From IMG/VR virus record IMGVR_UViG_3300033985_000055, positions 1 to 23,694 of that record: 23,694 nucleotides of DNA; one strand, written 5' to 3'. Shown here one piece after another: positions 4,589 through 16,006 of the stretch. This DNA is from a virus. The notes beneath the pieces are model-generated. The model was not told where the DNA came from. It did no database searches and was given only the letters and a program-made list of their open reading frames with translations. Made by a program: the position numbers and the translations under genes. Every line of letters starts with the position of its first letter. Within the stretch, counting starts at the first letter, position 1.

Positions 4589-5902
4589 TTACGCGGGCTC
4601 CGCCGCCCCCCGAGCCCCGTAATACGCACTCGCAACCCAGCGATAGGAATCCGCAGCCCGACAACGCGAGCCGCAATACGCGCCGTTAGTCCAATCACCG
4701 CCCGCGCGAAGCTTTATATCCGCTGAGCCACCGGCTCCATCGGCGTTATAAAGCGACCCCTTGTTTCCGGGTAGGTTGTACCAACCCCAATTAACTGTAA
4801 TTCCCGGTTGGTACGATTGGTCGCTAAGCCACTGATACATGACTCCTGCGCAATCCTCGCAACCTATATACGATATCATCCGCCTGCCATTAGTATCGAT
4901 ATGCCCTCCGGTCGTGCCGGGGTCTGCTGAACCAGAGATGTTCGTCTCCTCGTTTCCTCCCGCGGCTATTTTCTGAAATTCGCCATCGTCAAGCAGACGT
5001 TTTCCGACAGCACCCAAATCGTCTACGTGGTCCATCCATGTTCTCGTATCCGTGATGGTAGCACCGTAAGCCGATGCAGTGGTTGCGCCTGTGCCTGATT
5101 GTAAATAAATGTCAACCCATATGTTTGCCGATGGGCACCAAACCATACCCTCAGGTGAAGCGGATTTCGGGCGGTGGAGTAAATCCCACACGGAAAGAGG
5201 CAGAATGTCACCAGCAACGAAACCAGACAAAGGATGCCCCGTAATCGTCCCGACATCCGCGCACAAACAATGGAACCCGCCTATCTTGCGGCTTGTGTTG
5301 GGTGCATATCCTGCGGGATACGTTGAATTGGCTGAAAGGATGAGGATAGGTACATTCCCGCTCGATGGCTTGCAAACATAGATGTAAAAATCTTTCCCAG
5401 CCCTAGCCCCAGCTACAGTATAATTTGGTGTTATAGTATCCCAACATACTGCGTTGTTCAAATCTAATTCTATTTCAGTTGGTAGCTTATAAACCATATC
5501 ATCTATGCCAACAATAAGCCCTCCACCAGGGCTAACTATTGTATGTCTGTCGACTTCAGCTAATGTTCCTTTTATTGATGGTGCTGTGCCACGTTCATAT
5601 ACACTTGTAATTGTTACTGTAGTATCACCAGGTTTCCATTCTAGCCCTTCTGGTTTAGAGGAATTAACTGTAAGAAAAAAACCATCTGCTCCTCTGGGGA
5701 GCCTGACGACTTCACCTGGTGCAGTAGCTGTATATAAATCCCCCTTATCTTGTAATATAGCTTTATTTACCTTACCATCTACAATAGGTTTAAGTTCTTC
5801 GCCTTGTAAGGCAATAGCATCTACATATAATTTATTCCAATTCTTGGATTGTGTCCCTAAATCAGCATCTTTATTTACCCTTGGCACTATGTTTCTACTC
5901 AT
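4589..5902 (-). CDS. Receptor-binding tail protein with C-type-lectin-like variable C-terminus (DGR target candidate)
   Basis: A 437-residue tail protein. The N-terminus (SRNIVPRVNKDADLGTQSKN) is a fibre attachment-like segment followed by strand-rich regions. From about residue 200 the protein has the form of the Mtd-like C-type lectin fold: GGFHCLC, SVWDLLHRPK, GMVWCPS, DTRTWMDHVDDLGAVGKRLL, RRMISYIGCEDCAG, and finally AGGDWTNGAYCGSR...GARGAAEPA. The last ~40 residues match the consensus of DGR variable proteins, with most Asn positions replaced. It should bind the host receptor at the tail tip. ATG 5902 has AAGGAG eight bases upstream; a GTG at 5911 is less likely. It follows a second fibre gene by a dozen bases. 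The main alternative is a non-mutating lectin-fold fibre. Confidence 0.85.
   Translation of the reverse strand: MSRNIVPRVNKDADLGTQSKNWNKLYVDAIALQGEELKPIVDGKVNKAILQDKGDLYTATAPGEVVRLPRGADGFFLTVNSSKPEGLEWKPGDTTVTITSVYERGTAPSIKGTLAEVDRHTIVSPGGGLIVGIDDMVYKLPTEIELDLNNAVCWDTITPNYTVAGARAGKDFYIYVCKPSSGNVPILILSANSTYPAGYAPNTSRKIGGFHCLCADVGTITGHPLSGFVAGDILPLSVWDLLHRPKSASPEGMVWCPSANIWVDIYLQSGTGATTASAYGATITDTRTWMDHVDDLGAVGKRLLDDGEFQKIAAGGNEETNISGSADPGTTGGHIDTNGRRMISYIGCEDCAGVMYQWLSDQSYQPGITVNWGWYNLPGNKGSLYNADGAGGSADIKLRAGGDWTNGAYCGSRCRAADSYRWVASAYYGARGAAEPA
4592..4705 (-). other. Putative DGR variable region (VR)
   Basis: This is the 3' end of the lectin-fold fibre gene, residues about 400-437. The stretch is much richer in G and C than its neighbours and poor in A on the coding strand. 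Against the consensus I recall for such proteins (AGGNWNNGANCGSR, then N-rich, then GARGA), the differing residues D403, T405, Y409, A416, D418, S419, V423, S425 and Y427 are all written with codons ending in T or C (GAT, ACT, TAT, GCT, GAT, TCC, GTT, AGT, TAT). A416 uses GCT where most nearby Ala codons are GCG. This is what adenine mutagenesis of AAY codons would leave. No template copy was found in the window. Confidence 0.65.
4595..4617 (-). promoter_or_regulatory. GC-rich tract and hairpin at the 3' end of the variable region (possible IMH)
   Basis: On the coding strand GGGCTC pairs with GAGCCC across an 11-base G/C-only loop, inside a run that is nearly all G and C and ends at the stop codon. 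DGR targets end in a G/C-rich initiation-of-mutagenic-homology (IMH) element, and several have an adjacent hairpin or cruciform. The stem here lies inside the reading frame rather than after it. Only the position and composition support the reading; the hairpin is short. Confidence 0.45.
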
Positions 5903-5914
5903 ATTTATCACTCC

Positions 5915-7127: not shown

Positions 7128-10100
7128 TTATTTCTTCTGAGTATTAAATAAAAATCTACGCCATTCAAATTCTTTGTTGTATTGCTCAGACATCCAATAC
7201 TCCATAAGATAGGCGAAGTTTTGCCGTAGACCCTTGGTCGGTAGTCTCCACCAATATTCAGCTGCAGTATATGATGCTTTAGCAAGGTTTTGTAACCTTT
7301 CTGGCAATGCTTTCTCGCTATCTTCAAAGGCCTTATACATATAATTAACCACATTGGCTACTGATTGATACGCCCCAACTGCAGGAGAAAACTGGTAATT
7401 TTCATATCCACTAAAGATACCAAAGAAGTCTCTTAATAGAATCCATGTCCCCATATAATATCCAAATGTGTTTTTGGCTGACCACTTAGCCCACCTCCAC
7501 CATTCTGCTTCATCGTCCCAAGGATCTTCGTCGTTGGGGCCTCCCTGACGCATCCAAGTTAAAGCCATCGCTGGTACAACTAGCCCCCACAACATAAATG
7601 CTGCAAACCTTGCTACGTCACCCTTCTTAATTAAGTGTTGTGTTTCAAGATAGGTCATATTGCGCAGCGTGCCCATAAATGAATAAAACATAGAGAATAA
7701 TTGGTCTAACTCAGATCCTCTTTGTTTAGTTACAAGGTCGATAGCACGTCCAACGTTTTGAGTTTGTCTAATAACCATATCAGCATATTCTATGGCTCTT
7801 TGTTCACTCAAGCCCTCTTCGATCTTCATGTTATATGCTTCAAGCCAAACGGGTATGGTAACAGATGCATCCATAAACCCTATGAAGTAAAACCCCATCT
7901 CACGTATTTGGTCCATCGTTCCAGCTTGTATCATCCTTTTCATTGTTGCTGCTACATCTCTGTCCCATGACTGTTGCCTGAATCTCATAAACGGGGATTT
8001 ATCGTGCACAAATTTTGCTTTTTCTTTCCAAGATGTTGGGTCACTATAAAATGATATTATGGCGTGAGCTGTTCTAGCTGGGCCTATCATTACAGCGGCT
8101 GAACTATAACCTAAGACCTGTGCTAATGCAGGCGACATTCTAAGACCCAATCCAACCATAGTTGCGCCCATTCTTGCTCTTCGCAGCATTCGTTGCGTTG
8201 AAGTTAAGGCAGGGGCAAATCCTGACTGGATATGATCCAACCACTTATCGAATTGTTCTATAGCATGGTTGCCCAAAGCTCTTGTTATAGCACCTCTAAT
8301 GTCTGGATCATTAATAATACGTCTAACGTCTCGTATAGCACGTTTAAATGCCAGGTCTTCTGTGATATCGGCAACATGTTTAGCCAACACAGGCGTAACG
8401 CTTAACATGAGCTTAGCATCCTCACCCACAGTTACTAGACGTGGCTTAGCATATCCTGCTATCATTGACCTAGCACCAGAGATCAACCTAATATTGTCGT
8501 CCATATTAGAGTTAGTATAAAATTTATGAGTAGATAATCTTCTGTCGTATGCTATCGGGTAATATCCTCCAGCTACCCAACCGTATGGCGTCATCATGCC
8601 TGCAGGTTCTACTTTTTTAGGTCTTAAACCTGTCACATCCACCATCAAAGCTTCAACTTCAGGCCAGAAAGATTCAAGAAATGCTATAACATCTTTAACG
8701 AAGCCCCAGTCTGCTTCAGTCATATTTTCATTTAACCAAGATTCTATGGCTTCCTCGGTTAATCCAAAGCCAGTGATTAATCGTTCTCTGCCTTCCACGT
8801 TCAGATAGTTAAGGGCTATAGCAAGCATGTTGTCTCTATTCATGCGTTCGCCAGCCAAGAGAGATGTGGGAAGCCACTGTTTGTACCACTTGCGCATTTC
8901 TTTTTGTGGATAGTGCTTGTTCAATATTTCAGTTATTCTTTGAGCGGCTTCATATTGACGTATCATAGCTTCGTTGGTAGCTCTTTCTAATGGATTGTAT
9001 ATGGCGTCTCTAAATGCACCAAAGTCTTCAAAGTTGTCAAGTATTTTTACAAGAAAATCAACTCTATTGTGGTCCATGATACGTTTGTCTAACCCATCTT
9101 TGAGCTTTTGCATCAAAGTTGGGTTCAACATACCAGCTCTTTCGCCCTTGTCTACAGTAATAGAGTTTACTTGATCTAGTAAAATTTTCTTTACTTTGTC
9201 AAAGCTTTCTTGCCGTCCAGCCTCAAGGAACTTTTGCTCTAATTTACCAATGTATTCTATGGTTTTGATAGCATTTATCAAATCATAGAACTCCCCAACG
9301 GTCATCTCGTCTATTGGCTTAAGCTCAACAGAATGTATGATATCTTCAGGAAGATCTACTTCTTCACCGAGTGCCCTGCGCTCGTCTATGTATTGCCTTA
9401 AAGCATCACGCACTTCCCGTTCGTTTACAGTTCTACGGCTAGCATCTACAGCATCTACTAATTCTGCTATAACATTAAGCACTTCAAGTGGCAGGCCATA
9501 TGTCTTTCTGCCTCTATTTTGGTACTTTCTAATAAGTTCTATGCCACGCTTGACTTGCTCTCTAACTTCTATGGCCTCACGGGCTAAAGCAAAGTTCTGA
9601 GCTTGCAGGTCTTTGTAGTAAACTGCAGCCTCGTATTCACCATCAAGCACAGCCTGCTCATATTTAAGTGCATACTTTGCTGCCTGGGCAAAATACCTAG
9701 CAGGTGAAACATCACTTACCACATCTCTCAAGATAAGCAGTTTAGCATTGGCACGCATCATTTGTGCTCGCTTGGTTGAAGCTTCAACTAAATTTTGTTT
9801 TGTAGTTCTTGCATCTAAGATCAATGATTCAAGCACTAGCGAAGCAAGCATATCATCATTGTGAGTTGCTTTTTCAGCTATCTCTCGAAGGCCGTCGCCG
9901 AAAGCACCTGACTGTATCTCTCTATTTAAGTTGTCTTGATATGCTCGTCTTATTACATCTGCAATGGGTAATGCTGTGGCAAGCTCAGTATACATTTCAT
10001 TAATGTCAGCAAAGCCAAACATAGCCACAGCATCACTAAGAGAGATGTTGCCTCCTTCGGTTTTATACATGTTTCTAAATACTTTGAGGCCTTCTTCGCC

Positions 10101-13100
10101 GAAGACGTCAAGTATCTCTTGTTTTGAGAAGCTAAATCTAGATTTCGGCCGCCTCATCACTGATATCATCTGATATACAGGTTGAGACCTTATCATATCG
10201 CTAACTTCTTTTTTGATTTGTTTGCGCCTATCCCCTAAGGTGTTTTGTAATCTATCTACAAGAGGTTTAACTCCTTCCTTAACAAGCGAAGAGTGCTGTT
10301 CTCTGACAGCTTTATTAACAAGTTGAGCTAATGTTTCAAGATTATCAGTGCTAATACCAGCCTGCTCAGCAACCTCCATTATCCTATCTAGATGCTGTCG
10401 TTGCATGACGGCGTCTGCTTCATCCTCAAGTAGAATCCATCTATCAAAGACGCTTCTTACGTCGTCTGACAGCTCAACACCTAGCGCTGCCATCTCACGA
10501 TAGATTTCAAGCAACCAGCGTTTAATCTTCTCAAATATAGTGAGCACTTCAGGCGTGGGAGCCTTGCCTTCCATGAGGTAAGCTTCAAAACCACGAGCAA
10601 TCTGTTCTTTCTGCTCAGTGGTAAGTTCTTTTTCTGCTCCAACCCAGCTACGTAGGACAGCAAGATCACGTGCTCCAGCTTCTGATATTGTCCCCATATT
10701 TTCAGCTCTAAGTAAATGTTCAATGGCAAAGTGTCCAGCAAACTCATGTAGAGCTGTTGAAACATCGGTCTCTTTGAATATTCTTATGATCGCCTTACCA
10801 GAATCTTGGTCAAAAGAAATGCCGCCTCTTGGAGCTTGTTTGAATTGAACACTGGCTTCACCGTTCTCATCACGTATAACAGTTAAATTATTGAGCATAG
10901 TCTGTTGGTCTTCGCCGACGTATTTAGCAACGGTAGAAAGGACTCTGGCATTTATTTCAGCAACAGTTTCAGCCTGATCTAAATCTAGGCCTGCGTCCAT
11001 AAGTTTTATTCTTATATTTTCTTGCAGGGTTCTTAAGGATCTAGCTCTGGCGTCAAGGTCTTCAGTAAAAGAATCTATCTCACGCTCAAGGCTTGCCTTG
11101 GCGTTTTCCAATTCTCGTTCTGTTATACCAGTTTCACTAAATGCGACGTATTTAGCCAACCCTTCATGTAATTCTGTTCCCGCAATTCTTGAAGCATATA
11201 TTTCCATAGGAATGGACATCTTAGCCCCATCGTCGTCTAAGGCCTCAAGAAACTCTTTTTCTACATTTGGATCTCTATCAGTTGATAAAACATTTGATTC
11301 ATCAACCGCTCGTCTATATTCGTTTTCTAAACCCATGTCTGCGGCGGCTTCTTGTGGGTCGACGCCTCGATCTTGCCAGTAGTTTTGCCACTGCCTGACG
11401 GGTATGTATACTCTTTCTCTTGGAGTACCATCGACCATATCTTTAATATTTCTTCCAAATGTTATAAGAGAACGCTCTTTGGTATTTGATTCATTAACTG
11501 CCTCGTTTAATGTTTCTAATATTTCACGATTCTGATTGTATTCATCAATTTGAGTCTTGAGTTCTATTGCTCGACCACCCAAACCCAACATATTCCACAA
11601 GCCGAAAGAATAGAATGCCATCTTGGCTTCTTCTAATGGATCTAAAAATTCTTCAGTGAAACCTGGCAAAGCAAACGGCTGACCTGAAGTATATTTTAGA
11701 TATCTGTTAGCAAGAGCGCCCACTGAACCCTGTAAGAACTCTTCTGCCATTTCGTTTGTAAGGTCTAAAGCTGCTCTTGCTGCTTCCCTTGAAAATAATC
11801 TTAAAAAAGATGGGTTGTTTAAAAAATTGGATGCTATAGCAGACGTTGGTGCTAGCATTTTATACATAGGCCTAAACCATTTAACTGGAACCCAAGAAAG
11901 TGCAAGGCCTAACTGCATCATTTCTATTGCCGCTTGTGGGATGCTAGCAACATAAGCCACCTTAGCCATGTCGGTTGGGCCAAGCCCACGCCCATAAAGG
12001 TCTCTCTCTGCTTCCATATCTCTATAGTTACCTGACATTTCGGAAAACTGTACTGCACGCATCATGCCATATCGCCAAGCCCATTGTGCGAATTTGCTTG
12101 TTATTTGTGGTTGAGTCATAGCAGTAGCTGCAGTGGTAGCAGTAGTACCAGCAGTGGTAGCAGTAGTACCAGCAGGAAGAAGAGCGCTAGCGCCAGCGGC
12201 TGCGCCTACACCAGTTGCTGCACCTAGCCCAAGCCCAGCAAGAAGCATCCACGTAGCCTGTCCTGCAGCTGTGGTAACCCACGCGTATGTTTGTCCTGCA
12301 TATTGGGCAAATCCATATATAAGTTTGCCAAAGATATTTTTGTCTCTATACCAATCGGTGAAATATGGATCTTCTTCTAAGGCCTTTCTATATTGTGTCC
12401 AATAATTCATTCTTTCTTCGACGGTGATACCTTGAACTTTAGCCCCTATGTCGATAATATCTGGCATCCAAAGGGTAGGCAATCCCTCTCTTTCGGCTAC
12501 ATAACGGCCATGCAGTATTCCCTCATATGTAGAAGCAGCACCATGTCTATATGTAGTTGCTAATTCTTTTGCTATTCTACCTGGGCCGAAATCGACAGGA
12601 GCCCACGTACCTGCACGAATACTTCTTTCATGAATGCGTTGCCTTTCTTGAGTGCTCCTTGAAAATGCAGGCCTGCGTTCTGTGAGCTTTCTATCTTGGA
12701 TAACAGGGATAAATGGCCTTGATAAGGTTGCCTCTGTTTGTTTTATGTTATCTAGGTCATCTCTTACTATGCCCATACGATATACTTCTCTGGCTAAAAT
12801 ACTTGCCATCTTAGGGGCAGACAAAACAAATAAATCCCAATCATAATTGTTAGGGGTTAAGGTTTCGCCACGTTTCTCTATTTCATCTCGTACTTCAGGG
12901 AAATTCATTATTGTGGCCATGGTATACCCATAATCATCGGCCATCTTTTGGTAATGAGCAAGCTGATCTGAACTTATATCTCCGAAGGTCTTATATGCAT
13001 CGATGAGTGGCTGTTTTGGCATATATGGTTGTTGCTTCCTTTGTTGTAAAATCAAAGAAGCAGCTGCTATATTATTAGCAATGTCTGAAGGGATATTAAC

Positions 13101-13151
13101 TCCCTGTATGTTCTGTTCTTCTTCTTCTTCAAACCACAATTTCTCTGCCAT
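7128..13151 (-). CDS. Giant internal virion/ejection protein with zincin-like HEXXXH motif (gp16-like position)
   Basis: A 2007-residue protein, the largest in the window, in the place of T7 gp16. It is mostly helical. A Gly/Ala-rich hydrophobic stretch lies at about residues 293-325 (WMLLAGLGLGAATGVGAAAG) and another near 1851-1870 (FMLWGLVVPAMALTWM). Around 800-860 is a metallopeptidase-like segment of the polyvalent-protein type: ALHEFAGHFAIEHLL (HEFAGH at 802-807), then EQIARGFEAYLMEG, then WLLEIYREMAALG. The C-terminal ~500 residues resemble the end domain of large polyvalent phage proteins. No lytic transglycosylase motif was recognised. It probably enters the host with the DNA, forms part of a conduit across the envelope and may carry a peptidase. 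The ATG overlaps the preceding stop as TGATG, with AGGAG upstream. Confidence 0.75.
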   Translation of the reverse strand: MAEKLWFEEEEEQNIQGVNIPSDIANNIAAASLILQQRKQQPYMPKQPLIDAYKTFGDISSDQLAHYQKMADDYGYTMATIMNFPEVRDEIEKRGETLTPNNYDWDLFVLSAPKMASILAREVYRMGIVRDDLDNIKQTEATLSRPFIPVIQDRKLTERRPAFSRSTQERQRIHERSIRAGTWAPVDFGPGRIAKELATTYRHGAASTYEGILHGRYVAEREGLPTLWMPDIIDIGAKVQGITVEERMNYWTQYRKALEEDPYFTDWYRDKNIFGKLIYGFAQYAGQTYAWVTTAAGQATWMLLAGLGLGAATGVGAAAGASALLPAGTTATTAGTTATTAATAMTQPQITSKFAQWAWRYGMMRAVQFSEMSGNYRDMEAERDLYGRGLGPTDMAKVAYVASIPQAAIEMMQLGLALSWVPVKWFRPMYKMLAPTSAIASNFLNNPSFLRLFSREAARAALDLTNEMAEEFLQGSVGALANRYLKYTSGQPFALPGFTEEFLDPLEEAKMAFYSFGLWNMLGLGGRAIELKTQIDEYNQNREILETLNEAVNESNTKERSLITFGRNIKDMVDGTPRERVYIPVRQWQNYWQDRGVDPQEAAADMGLENEYRRAVDESNVLSTDRDPNVEKEFLEALDDDGAKMSIPMEIYASRIAGTELHEGLAKYVAFSETGITERELENAKASLEREIDSFTEDLDARARSLRTLQENIRIKLMDAGLDLDQAETVAEINARVLSTVAKYVGEDQQTMLNNLTVIRDENGEASVQFKQAPRGGISFDQDSGKAIIRIFKETDVSTALHEFAGHFAIEHLLRAENMGTISEAGARDLAVLRSWVGAEKELTTEQKEQIARGFEAYLMEGKAPTPEVLTIFEKIKRWLLEIYREMAALGVELSDDVRSVFDRWILLEDEADAVMQRQHLDRIMEVAEQAGISTDNLETLAQLVNKAVREQHSSLVKEGVKPLVDRLQNTLGDRRKQIKKEVSDMIRSQPVYQMISVMRRPKSRFSFSKQEILDVFGEEGLKVFRNMYKTEGGNISLSDAVAMFGFADINEMYTELATALPIADVIRRAYQDNLNREIQSGAFGDGLREIAEKATHNDDMLASLVLESLILDARTTKQNLVEASTKRAQMMRANAKLLILRDVVSDVSPARYFAQAAKYALKYEQAVLDGEYEAAVYYKDLQAQNFALAREAIEVREQVKRGIELIRKYQNRGRKTYGLPLEVLNVIAELVDAVDASRRTVNEREVRDALRQYIDERRALGEEVDLPEDIIHSVELKPIDEMTVGEFYDLINAIKTIEYIGKLEQKFLEAGRQESFDKVKKILLDQVNSITVDKGERAGMLNPTLMQKLKDGLDKRIMDHNRVDFLVKILDNFEDFGAFRDAIYNPLERATNEAMIRQYEAAQRITEILNKHYPQKEMRKWYKQWLPTSLLAGERMNRDNMLAIALNYLNVEGRERLITGFGLTEEAIESWLNENMTEADWGFVKDVIAFLESFWPEVEALMVDVTGLRPKKVEPAGMMTPYGWVAGGYYPIAYDRRLSTHKFYTNSNMDDNIRLISGARSMIAGYAKPRLVTVGEDAKLMLSVTPVLAKHVADITEDLAFKRAIRDVRRIINDPDIRGAITRALGNHAIEQFDKWLDHIQSGFAPALTSTQRMLRRARMGATMVGLGLRMSPALAQVLGYSSAAVMIGPARTAHAIISFYSDPTSWKEKAKFVHDKSPFMRFRQQSWDRDVAATMKRMIQAGTMDQIREMGFYFIGFMDASVTIPVWLEAYNMKIEEGLSEQRAIEYADMVIRQTQNVGRAIDLVTKQRGSELDQLFSMFYSFMGTLRNMTYLETQHLIKKGDVARFAAFMLWGLVVPAMALTWMRQGGPNDEDPWDDEAEWWRWAKWSAKNTFGYYMGTWILLRDFFGIFSGYENYQFSPAVGAYQSVANVVNYMYKAFEDSEKALPERLQNLAKASYTAAEYWWRLPTKGLRQNFAYLMEYWMSEQYNKEFEWRRFLFNTQKK
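12131..12172 (-). repeat. Two perfect 21-bp tandem repeats inside the giant ejection gene
   Basis: The unit CAGTGGTAGCAGTAGTACCAG (written here on the plus strand as two parts, CAGTGGTAGC and AGTAGTACCAG) occurs twice in a row without mismatch, preceded on the left by a degenerate partial copy. It is in phase with the reading frame and encodes a repeated AGTTATT heptapeptide next to the first hydrophobic segment, at about residues 327-340. Loss or gain of a unit would keep the frame. Confidence 0.85.
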
Positions 13152-14977
13152 CAGCGCTTTCTCCTATCAATAGGCATACCACCAAGTACTTCCCATGCTG
13201 GAACCCATTCGCCATCCCTGTCCATATACCATTGCAAGCTGCCATCTGGAGCTTCTCTAAGTACGCCACCCATTCTATATATTTCATAACCTCTCAATTT
13301 GTTCTTTTGGAAGAAACCCTGAGATACCACTACTTCTTCCATCAACGCATCAGCAAGATCATAATATGTAGTTGGCTTTATTGAAGCTCGACCAGTAGTC
13401 CCAGCCATGGCATCAATATATTCAAGATATGCTTCCTTAAATTCAAGATAACTTCTCAGGCTTTCTGGTGACTTAAAGTATTTATTCTTAACATATGTAT
13501 CTACATCAGAAGGAATGTTTCCACTATAGTCTGGATTAAGATATACATTTGAATTTTTCTGTACTACGTCTCTTATTATTGACTCAACCTCAGGATTACT
13601 TAAGATACGTTTTTCTGCAGCCTCTTTTTTTGCAATAGCATCATATACGTCACTTGATAATCTTGGCAAAAGCGCTTCTGAAATATTATTATCATCCACA
13701 GCCCTATAAATAGAATCGTAAAGTCCTGGATGTACATCTCTTGTACGCCATGCTTGGTAAATTGTCTTCTGTTCTTCTTTTGTAAACCTTCCACCAAGAG
13801 CAGCAAATATTTCAGCTTCGCTTTTAAAGGCCTCTGGATGTTCGGGTGGCAATGTTACTCTCCATAAAATATAATCAAAATCCTTAAAACTCTGCCATCT
13901 GCCTACATCTGATTTCTCATAATTAGATCGTACTTGGTTTTGCAAGCTCAACTTATCTTTAGGATCTAAATTAGATTCTTCAATTATTTTGATAGCATCG
14001 GTCAAAGAGCCAGCAGATGAAATCCTAACCACAATAGAATTTAAATAATTATCATAACGTTCTGCCTCAAATCTTCGTTCATCCACATAAATACCCTGCA
14101 CGTATGTCATAAGCTTATTTTCTCTTTCGCCACTAAAATTTTCTCTAATATACTCTAAGGCTCCCTCTTCGTTCTGTAGACCAAACTGCTGAAATATTTT
14201 GTACCCAGTTTCTTGGACAAATATAACTTCTTCTTTATCTTTAATAAAGCCTTCTATCTTAGTCTGGTTGGCAGTGCTTATCTTGTCTTTATTTTGTTCA
14301 TAGTAATCTTTAGCAGCTTCAAGCTCATCGTTCGCCAATAAATTAGAAATAATGCCACTGTGTACATTATTGTGCCATTCATCCATAGCAAGTTTTACTG
14401 GCTCTTCACCATAACTACCATAAATAGCTGTAGCTACACGCTCTGCCTCTTGAGTAAAAGCAGCCATAGCTTCGGGATCACCCTTAGATGCTATAGCTGC
14501 TTCTGTGAGAGATGCAAGATTTGCATTAAGTTGTTGTACTCTAGCTTTTTGCATTTCAGCAGCTTCGTGTTTAGAAATCTGGCTTTGATATGCTGGTAGT
14601 TGTCGTAACATTGATTGTATCAATACATTTCCTTGATTAGTGTTTTCTGCTTTAACGGCAATTTCTTCAATTATTTTATTGTATTCTTCAACAAAAGTTT
14701 TATATATTCCATCTGCTTCTAAACCCTGCTTAAGCATTAGTCCATTCTCGCCATACAAAATATTAGTAACACGTTGCTGGGCTTCAACCGTAAGGTTTAA
14801 ACCTTTGATTGCATCTCTTTCATCTTGCATACGCTTGGCATGAGCTTCTAATTCTGCCCCAGCTTGAGACAATGCAGATGCAATGGTTCCACCAAAAGCT
14901 TCAGGCCCAGGAGCCGTGGCCGTTGGTGTTGGAGGATTTTTTATTGTTTCTTGTGGGATTAATCTAGGTACTCTCAT
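13151..14977 (-). CDS. Internal virion protein, gp15-like position
   Basis: A 608-residue, soluble, almost wholly helical protein. The N-terminus is Pro-rich (PRLIPQETIKNPPTPTATAP), followed by an amphipathic region of the kind seen in podovirus ejection proteins (ALSQAGAELEAHAKRMQDER, AQQRVTNILYGENGLMLKQG). The C-terminus is basic (GGMPIDRRKR). It lies between a gp14-like and a gp16-like gene, the order of the T7 ejection proteins, and starts two bases after the upstream stop. No catalytic motif is visible. It probably joins the periplasmic tunnel during DNA entry. Assignment is from position, length and composition rather than a recognised motif. Confidence 0.65.
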   Translation of the reverse strand: MRVPRLIPQETIKNPPTPTATAPGPEAFGGTIASALSQAGAELEAHAKRMQDERDAIKGLNLTVEAQQRVTNILYGENGLMLKQGLEADGIYKTFVEEYNKIIEEIAVKAENTNQGNVLIQSMLRQLPAYQSQISKHEAAEMQKARVQQLNANLASLTEAAIASKGDPEAMAAFTQEAERVATAIYGSYGEEPVKLAMDEWHNNVHSGIISNLLANDELEAAKDYYEQNKDKISTANQTKIEGFIKDKEEVIFVQETGYKIFQQFGLQNEEGALEYIRENFSGERENKLMTYVQGIYVDERRFEAERYDNYLNSIVVRISSAGSLTDAIKIIEESNLDPKDKLSLQNQVRSNYEKSDVGRWQSFKDFDYILWRVTLPPEHPEAFKSEAEIFAALGGRFTKEEQKTIYQAWRTRDVHPGLYDSIYRAVDDNNISEALLPRLSSDVYDAIAKKEAAEKRILSNPEVESIIRDVVQKNSNVYLNPDYSGNIPSDVDTYVKNKYFKSPESLRSYLEFKEAYLEYIDAMAGTTGRASIKPTTYYDLADALMEEVVVSQGFFQKNKLRGYEIYRMGGVLREAPDGSLQWYMDRDGEWVPAWEVLGGMPIDRRKR

Positions 14978-14979
14978 AA

Positions 14980-15537
14980 TTACTTACCTAGGGGCTGGCC
15001 CATCCAGTCCCATTTATCAGAAAAATTAGTAACAGCTGTCCCAAGGTGGGTTAACCCTCCTATAATCCCAGCAGTTCTTGCTTGTCTACCAGTAGCACGG
15101 GCTACATCAGCCTGATATCTTTCCATGTTGGCACGGTTGCCATAACCCCATTGGTCTAGCATAGCATTATATCTGATTGTGGCGGCATCTTGCTCTATGC
15201 TCCACTGTGTACTGAGCAAAACATCCAAAGGACTTCCTGCATCAGGGATAAGACCAGCAGCACCAAAGGCAGCACGCTGAGCACCTTTGGTAAGCTCACC
15301 TCTCATTCTCAATTGTCTTTCTTCTTGAGCAGCTCTTTCTGCTGATATAGCAGCCTTGCTTTCTTCAATCTGAGCGTTGTATTCTGCAGCCCTTGCTTGA
15401 GCTTCAGCGCTTTGTTGAGCGGCTCTACCGTACATTACTGGAGCGGCTACTGACATCACAGTGCCTAGCCCACCAAGGAATGCAGGAACACTACTAAATG
15501 TATTACTTACCCAGGTTGTAAGTGCATTAATGCACAT
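14980..15537 (-). CDS. Internal virion protein, gp14-like
   Basis: A 185-residue protein. A hydrophobic segment near the N-terminus (about residues 14-35: SVPAFLGGLGTVMSVAAPVM) is followed by an Ala/Glu-rich coiled coil (QQSAEAQARAAEYNAQIEES, then KAAISAERAAQEERQLRMRG), a conserved-looking AAGLIPDAGSPLDVLL stretch and a helical tail. This arrangement is typical of T7 gp14-type ejection proteins, which insert in the outer membrane at the start of DNA entry. The frame is open back to 15588, but the ATG at 15537 has AGGAG upstream and removes an unlikely N-terminal extension. It overlaps the GNAT gene by 11 bases. Confidence 0.75.
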   Translation of the reverse strand: MCINALTTWVSNTFSSVPAFLGGLGTVMSVAAPVMYGRAAQQSAEAQARAAEYNAQIEESKAAISAERAAQEERQLRMRGELTKGAQRAAFGAAGLIPDAGSPLDVLLSTQWSIEQDAATIRYNAMLDQWGYGNRANMERYQADVARATGRQARTAGIIGGLTHLGTAVTNFSDKWDWMGQPLGK

Positions 15538-16006
15538 CTCTATCACTCCTAACCCAAACCATCTTATAAAACCTAGCTGAAGCATCAACGCCAGGATAAA
15601 TTTCTTCTAAAATCTTAAATCCAACCCATTCAAGCATCTTTATCACTTCAGTGTTTTTTGAATATATTATACATTCAAGCGCATTAAACCTGTTTTGTAA
15701 ATCCTTCATTATTTTCTTGAAATGCTTTAAAAATATAATACCATATTTATTGATAAGACTTGAACATATAAGCCAAGGATACGCTCGTTTAGTTAATTTA
15801 GATAACTCACGAAACCCAAACATAGCCGCAATTCTACCATCTATAGTAACAGCATATACTTCGTCGGACATGTTTACAGATTGCATCAATGCGTCTTTGT
15901 CTGCTGAGCCAAATAATGCGATTAGCTCGGCAATATTACCAGGATGTAACGATTCTATAATTTGATCTATGTGATGGTCTTGGCATACCTCAGTCCTAAT
16001 CTCCAT
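15527..16006 (-). CDS. GNAT-like protein, T7 gp13/DUF2833-like
   Basis: A 159-residue protein with a GNAT-type pattern: an N-terminal helical part (IDQIIESLHPGNIAELIALF), central strands (EVYAVTIDGRIAAMFGFREL), and a C-terminal part with NTEVIKMLEWVGFKILEE, the usual place for the conserved helix and strand of acetyltransferases. T7 gp13-like/DUF2833 proteins have this form, are encoded between the tail tube and ejection-protein genes, and are needed for virion maturation; whether they acetylate anything is not known. Here it sits in exactly that place. The ATG has GAGGGT upstream and overlaps the nozzle gene by 11 bases. A clear acetyl-CoA-binding Q/RxxGxG/A motif is not seen, so enzymatic activity is doubtful. 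Confidence 0.72.
   Translation of the reverse strand: MEIRTEVCQDHHIDQIIESLHPGNIAELIALFGSADKDALMQSVNMSDEVYAVTIDGRIAAMFGFRELSKLTKRAYPWLICSSLINKYGIIFLKHFKKIMKDLQNRFNALECIIYSKNTEVIKMLEWVGFKILEEIYPGVDASARFYKMVWVRSDRDVH

Follow-up and report, generated by a model that had tools for sequence, protein, structure and literature searches.

A protein of 2,007 amino acids encoded in the window, the whole 23,694-nucleotide stretch of viral DNA analysed here, has the sequence HEFAGH (HEXXXH) at residues 802-807, one residue longer than the classical HEXXH zinc-binding motif. A preliminary description proposed that this was either a rare variant peptidase or a decayed site; the motif is real, and the residue numbers given for it and its candidate partners (802, 803, 807, 849, and 856) agree with the translation. 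The question raised by this locus is whether a zinc helix can take an extra residue and still serve a peptidase. The answer favored here, from alignment, a predicted structure, and analogy with solved enzymes, is that one residue was inserted in one clade of phages and that the result is probably a working zinc peptidase domain, with a proposed metal, activity, and substrate.

The giant protein and its neighbors

The features needed to place the motif are these, all on the minus strand:
7128..13151, minus strand: giant protein, 2,007 aa (open reading frame), PHROG 9880 family (BPP-1 Bbp10-like), in the place of a T7 gp16-like ejection protein
10437..10979, minus strand: zincin-type metallopeptidase (MPTase) domain, approximately residues 725-905, from a 103-row alignment, an AlphaFold2 model (pLDDT 91.6), and structural matches
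13151..14977, minus strand: 608-aa protein upstream of the giant protein, in a T7 gp15-like place, its N-terminal part resembling the BPP-1 bbp11 family
14980..15588, minus strand: T7 gp14-like internal virion protein (PF24072, E 1.4e-7, above the curated cut-off; phrog_418)
4589-5911, minus strand: tail protein with the second domain of Mtd (PF21916, 4.1e-18)

The PHROG 9880 profile, annotated as having no known function, matches residues 768-1983 of the giant protein (708.7 bits, E 4.5e-212), which is most of its length. A weak Pfam match to LPD22 at residues 57-145 is under the curated cut-off. Homologues of the giant protein were found by tblastn in 43 of 50,697 phage records, with less than 60% identity in all; they occur in Bordetella BPP-1 (bbp10), Pseudomonas AF, HU1, UFJF_PfDIW6, and Xanthomonas, Vibrio, and Caulobacter phages. 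Limnohabitans phage DC33 is labelled Inoviridae yet has a podovirus-type giant protein, which is probably a taxonomy error. The window corresponds to a section of IMG/VR contig 3300034685_000101, with 100% identity over the protein and over 212 bases.

The gene order is head-tail connector (PF12236), major capsid protein (PF20911), tail proteins, a phrog_308 member, T7 gp14-like protein (PF24072), 608-aa protein, giant protein, Mtd-type tail protein, and GH108 lysin. The giant protein thus occupies the place of T7 gp16, and gene order alone suggests that it may be a virion component that enters the cell. Of the bbp11-type "endolysin" family (phrog_10475, 700 positions), the 608-aa protein matches only the N-terminal third (residues 2-249), and the lytic transglycosylase part of BPP-1 bbp11 is apparently absent from it. 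The Mtd-type domain is of the receptor-binding type that is diversified via a retroelement in BPP-1; the 39,953-base record, possibly a fragment, contained neither a second copy of the 3' end of the Mtd-type gene (212 bases) nor a reverse transcriptase (PF00078).

Pfam has no model naming the window's domain, with CLN5 and YcbB matching only below the cut-off. Among the 103 family members, Pfam matches at E up to 1 were to ART-PolyVal (11), Peptidase_M78 (5), Peptidase_M3 (3), and SprT-like (2). No close relative was present among 340 pattern stretches from bacterial genomes.

An extra residue in a single clade

The motif and the residues proposed to act with it are as follows:
10731..10748, minus strand: HEFAGH, residues 802-807, with predicted zinc ligands H802 and H807 and predicted general base E803
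10737..10742, minus strand: F804-A805, either of which is the inserted residue; the aligner places the gap at 804, an arbitrary choice
10725..10727, minus strand: A809, a small residue two positions after the second His, mostly F/Y/W in HEXXH relatives (core comparison)
10608..10610, minus strand: K848, directly before the predicted third ligand
10605..10607, minus strand: E849, predicted third zinc ligand, in an ExxA pattern on a later helix that is also found in another HEXXXH set
10584..10586, minus strand: E856, seven positions after the predicted third ligand, predicted second-shell partner of H802, with spacing like that of LTA4 hydrolase and thimet oligopeptidase (PMC3268031, Table 1)

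HEFAGH is the sole HE-X2/3-H sequence in the giant protein, and HEXXXH would be expected by chance 0.0175 times per protein (composition-preserving shuffles). Three further IMG/VR contigs have HEFAGH or HEFTGH at the corresponding position, which speaks against chance or an assembly error; two encode proteins with 84% and 78% full-length identity to the window protein, and the third a protein with 79% identity over the domain.

For motif reading, 20 of the 43 phage records were fetched, and loci were added from viral contigs and genome contigs. Every domain in the fetched records with the site in its DNA has HEXXH, within D-x-S-T-x-x-HE. Among the 265 loci there were 237 distinct hits to the domain scoring at least 25 bits, of which 227 have HEXXH, 7 have HEXXXH, and 3 have no site. 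The HEXXXH hits come from four contigs (3300034685_000101, which is the window's, 3300034520_000142, 3300034684_000116, and 3300033987_000042). All three site-less hits start downstream of the site: one record (L023) starts inside the gene, a second locus (L055) opens with the protein, and the third (L090) has an upstream HETGH in the same open reading frame. The statement in the preliminary description that phage polyvalent proteins normally keep HEXXH is accurate for this family and too broad for polyvalent proteins in general, as the account of Iyer et al. 2017 (PMC5512222) and the set discussed below indicate. Outside the zincin domain, some giant phage proteins have HD-X3-H motifs (HDAFGH in L022 and L102, HDYFGH in L054, and HDYYAH in L174).

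In the alignment of 103 rows, window included, a gap of one residue sets the HEXXH of the relatives against HEFAGH, and 99 of the rows are gapped at column 804. H802, E803, H807, and Y858 are present in 103/103, and E849 and E856 in 102/103, the sole exception (L090) being misaligned there. The preliminary description had raised the prospect of homologues with neither histidine; both are found in every aligned row.

With the motif columns removed, a rapid phylogeny of all 103 rows groups the four HEXXXH sequences as a single clade (SH-aLRT 100), which falls within a set of 10 rows whose other members are the HEXXH rows L120, L125, L113, L092, L112, and L117 (SH-aLRT 96). A more careful tree of 57 of the 103 rows gives 100/99 for the clade and 98/90 for the 10-row set, with a bootstrap that had not fully settled. 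There is one state change in 200/200 bootstrap trees, and the stem of the HEXXXH clade is long (1.26-1.38 changes per column). The alignment is most likely explained by the insertion of a single residue into the zinc helix, in one event and one clade. Because the HEXXXH clade is nested among HEXXH rows and 227 of 237 hits are HEXXH, the shorter form is probably ancestral, a direction that nesting and count suggest and that the tree alone does not fix.

Two positions near the site also vary. The second residue after the second His is F/Y/W in 186 of 208 distinct HEXXH cores and A in three, and it is A in all HEXXXH cores. The sister rows L112 and L117 also have A despite having HEXXH, so the change either predates the insertion or is independent of it. 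The idea that the small residue compensates for the insertion was dropped for this reason, and the residue would be permissive at most. At residue 848, 79/103 rows have H; the four HEXXXH rows share K with a single HEXXH row (L062), and five of the six sisters have Q, Q, R, L, and S. It is possible, though doubtful, that changes already present in the HEXXH sisters (the small residue in L112 and L117, together with a residue other than His ahead of the third ligand in five of six) helped a recent insertion to give an active HEXXXH site, and that this insertion shifted the preferred metal or the substrate, much as shortening the motif does in DPP III.

Predicted fold, selection, and the state of the site

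AlphaFold2 was run on the 103-row alignment for residues 702-931, and the model, which contains no zinc, has a mean pLDDT of 91.6 and a pTM of 0.87, with approximately 95-96 for the block of residues 802-811. The motif is on a helix (797-819), and E849 and E856 are on a later one (845-860). An HEXXH relative modelled as a control (L082) has a mean pLDDT of 76.2, with less than 50 for its first 47 residues and 95 for block 101-110. In model numbering, the two helices are 96-118 and 144-159 in the window protein (motif 101-106, E849 at 148, E856 at 155), and 96-116 and 145-161 in the control. The first helix starts at the same place in both models, which suggests that the extra residue is absorbed within the helix. 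The preliminary description asked whether H802, H807, and one of the two glutamates can meet at a metal, and took a model with these residues far apart as a refutation; helix placement gives no sign of such a refutation, both histidines being on one confidently predicted helix and both glutamates on a later one.

The strands and helices of the model are in order for a candidate zincin fold, with VIA Z scores below 8 and Foldseek matches that are not significant. All 50 of the 50 matches listed by VIA-align for the top Foldseek chains are zinc-peptidase-family entries, each with Z <8, which the tool treats as possibly a common arrangement. Of those listed, anthrax lethal factor scores best (Z 7.1, rmsd 4.9, 148 aligned), and others include PPEP-1 (6.7), ERAP1 (5.8), ACE2 (5.5), ACE (5.2), and IRAP (5.0). 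Foldseek against the PDB gave nothing at E ≤ 0.001; its top rows are unrelated and lethal factor is at rank 12. Against viral models there were 21 matches at E ≤ 0.001; most are phage proteins with no name or labelled "crystallin beta/gamma motif", and some bear the names Large polyvalent protein associated domain-containing or ART-PolyVal-like. Lethal factor rows also lead the VIA list of the control (Z 5.5), with many unrelated rows beneath, and this together with its low model confidence makes it a weak control. The polyvalent-protein MPTase has been described as a zincin fold with a three-stranded sheet, an N-terminal helix, and two C-terminal helices (Iyer et al. 2017, PMC5512222), and the model and alignment place HEXXXH on one C-terminal helix and a conserved Glu on the next.

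Enzymes with HEXXXH indicate how such a site could work. HEXXXH binds metal in structures of DPP III (PMC5667867). In the account given of rat DPP III (HELLGH-aa52-E), zinc is bound by H450, H455, and E508, E451 is catalytic, and each helical turn at the motif spans five residues (PMC3268031). TldD also binds metal through HExxxH, with the extra residue fitted by distortion of the helix (PMC5810440). In LTA4 hydrolase (E318/E325) and thimet oligopeptidase (E502/E509), a Glu seven positions after the third ligand is bound to the first His (PMC3268031, Table 1). This spacing, together with the ExxA pattern starting at E849, suggests E849 as the third ligand and E856 as the second-shell partner of H802; the preliminary description had left the choice between them open. 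Thermolysin and DPP III have a contact between the second His and the residue directly preceding the third ligand (PMC3268031); the predicted equivalent in the window is K848, where relatives mostly have His. The most likely reading is that the motif belongs to the zinc helix of a functional zincin-type peptidase domain in this BPP-1 Bbp10-like giant protein, its catalytic Glu and second His set one position further apart by an inserted residue. The helix probably widens a turn or bulges to hold that residue, as in DPP III and TldD, and H802, H807, and E849 may still share one zinc, with water activated by E803 and H802 steadied by E856. The likeliest use would be cleavage of the very protein that contains the domain, either inside the virion or once it has entered the cell, by extension from the proposals of Iyer et al. 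2017 (PMC5512222).

A decayed site, in which the insertion abolished peptidase function and structure or packaging alone keeps the fold in place, is the alternative with most in its favor, and it is still unlikely. On a regular helix, positions five apart are on different faces, and the common His before the third ligand is replaced by K848. Non-catalytic zincin-like domains exist. A few of the VIA rows listed (1jky, 1pwp) align on the N-terminal domain of lethal factor (chain range 30-252), which is presumably metal-free. Against decay, no ligand or base has been lost in four diverged phages, decay normally strips His or Glu first, and HEXXXH works elsewhere (DPP III, TldD). H802 and H807 are identical in all four phages; the codons of E803 and H807 have silent differences, and those of H802 and E849 have no differences. 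Over residues 770-905, dN/dS is 0.032-0.101 for the six pairs among the four HEXXXH phages, values that are rough since dS (0.95-2.69) is near saturation. Purifying selection argues against decay and says nothing of catalysis as such; a structural, non-catalytic domain would also be under purifying selection. Retention of H802, E803, H807, E849, E856, and Y858, low dN/dS (0.03-0.10), and a confident model together make decay unlikely, and of the two possibilities in the preliminary description it is the variant peptidase that fits the conservation of active-site residues at high synonymous divergence.

A non-catalytic or altered metal site, binding zinc or another metal in a structural or sensing role, is improbable. 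The conserved ligands are compatible with it, and DPP III offers a precedent for altered metal use: its HEXXXH form is reported to accept Cu, Ni, and Co, and a deletion form with HEXXH to be active with Zn, Co, and Ni and not with Cu (PMC3268031). Metal use could therefore differ here as well. However, the base E803 is also invariant (103/103), although it would be dispensable for metal binding, as E451 mutants of DPP III retain zinc (PMC3268031).

Comparison with known systems

Iyer et al. 2017 (PMC5512222) have described a set of polyvalent-protein MPTases with HEXXXH, for which they suggest either processing of the parent protein or targets in the host. The occurrence of HEXXXH among phage peptidases is therefore known; no report of an insertion within the BPP-1-type family was found in the literature searched. 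One open reading frame of an Alistipes-labelled metagenome contig (L217:3-4643) has both a family HEXXH domain (HEAAH) and, further on, an unrelated-looking HEVTGHYG. A tblastn search with the latter domain gave 7 phage records, and 4/4 of those fetched have HEXXXH; G is the second residue after the second His in 5/5 rows of this HEVVGHxG set from tblastn or its seed. A scan of viral contigs with the pattern HE[VI][VLT][GRV]HxG gave 80 loci (78 read, 25 representatives aligned), among which Gly and HEXXXH are not independent counts because the pattern demands both. This set is probably that of Iyer et al., and hhalign indicates that it and the window's family are remote homologues (probability 88.7%, E 2.5e-6). 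The set and the window clade both have HEXXXH on a predicted bent helix and ExxA on a later helix, in keeping with the published description; they differ in sequence and in the second residue after the second His, which is G in the set and A in the window clade. The helix characteristic of the set (HE[VI]xGHxG) is absent from the window clade, whose closest kin are in the HEXXH family. Nesting among HEXXH relatives implies that its HEXXXH most likely arose independently. Acquisition of the helix from the HEVVGHxG set by recombination, with no single insertion, is very improbable: HEFTGHFALEQLL looks like HEVVGHFGVEALLG by eye and hhalign pairs the two families without a gap at the extra residue, but the flanks (D-x-S-T-A and KEQIA[RK]GFExYLMEGKAPT) are of the HEXXH-family type, the second residue after the second His is A rather than G, as it already is in the sisters L112 and L117, and the overall similarity is remote.

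DPP III (family M49) shares with the window the HEXXGH hexapeptide and a Glu ligand at a comparable distance, predicted here 41 residues on, the second M49 motif being described as 22-55 residues after HEXXGH (PMC5667867). That second motif, EEXR(K)AE(D), is missing, and the window has KEQIARGFE at 848-856. A profile of the 103-row alignment against PDB sequences retrieved no DPP III, only three weak matches (two to the SprT-like Spartan and one to FtsH, E 0.16-0.85). DPP III is also not among the 50 VIA matches listed, an absence that excludes nothing. M49 membership is disfavored by the missing motif and the lack of sequence relation in the PDB-sequence search, and the analogy drawn in the preliminary description holds for the working mode and not for membership. 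TldD is alike in having HExxxH on a distorted metal-binding helix, and is set apart, as described, by a Cys third ligand and an unrelated fold (PMC5810440).

The CLCA_X zincin family was built by Lenart et al. 2013 (PMC3650047). Bbp10 residues 700-1000 are given there among the seeds (PMC3650047). The published consensus is HExxHxxxD (PMC3650047), whereas the window has HEFAGHFAIE (HExxxHxxxE), and E at the position of the consensus D is also found in 79/103 family rows. The nearest system is that of the BPP-1 Bbp10-like proteins: the whole protein is homologous, the domain is shared, the gene follows a bbp11-like gene, and E849, E856, and Y858 are kept, while the window differs in having HEXXXH rather than HEXXH and K at residue 848.

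Located in the largest predicted entry protein of a small phage group, the HEXXXH domain is most likely an enzyme of known type in a functional variant form rather than a broken one. It counters the view that such a motif in a phage polyvalent protein is a mark of decay. HEXXH and HEXXXH peptidases are mostly in separate families, and conversion between them has so far been visible only in engineered enzymes, shortened DPP III being one. In this phage protein family the two forms coexist, a natural HEXXH-to-HEXXXH experiment, and with alignable domains and an outgroup order the step between them is directly testable side by side.
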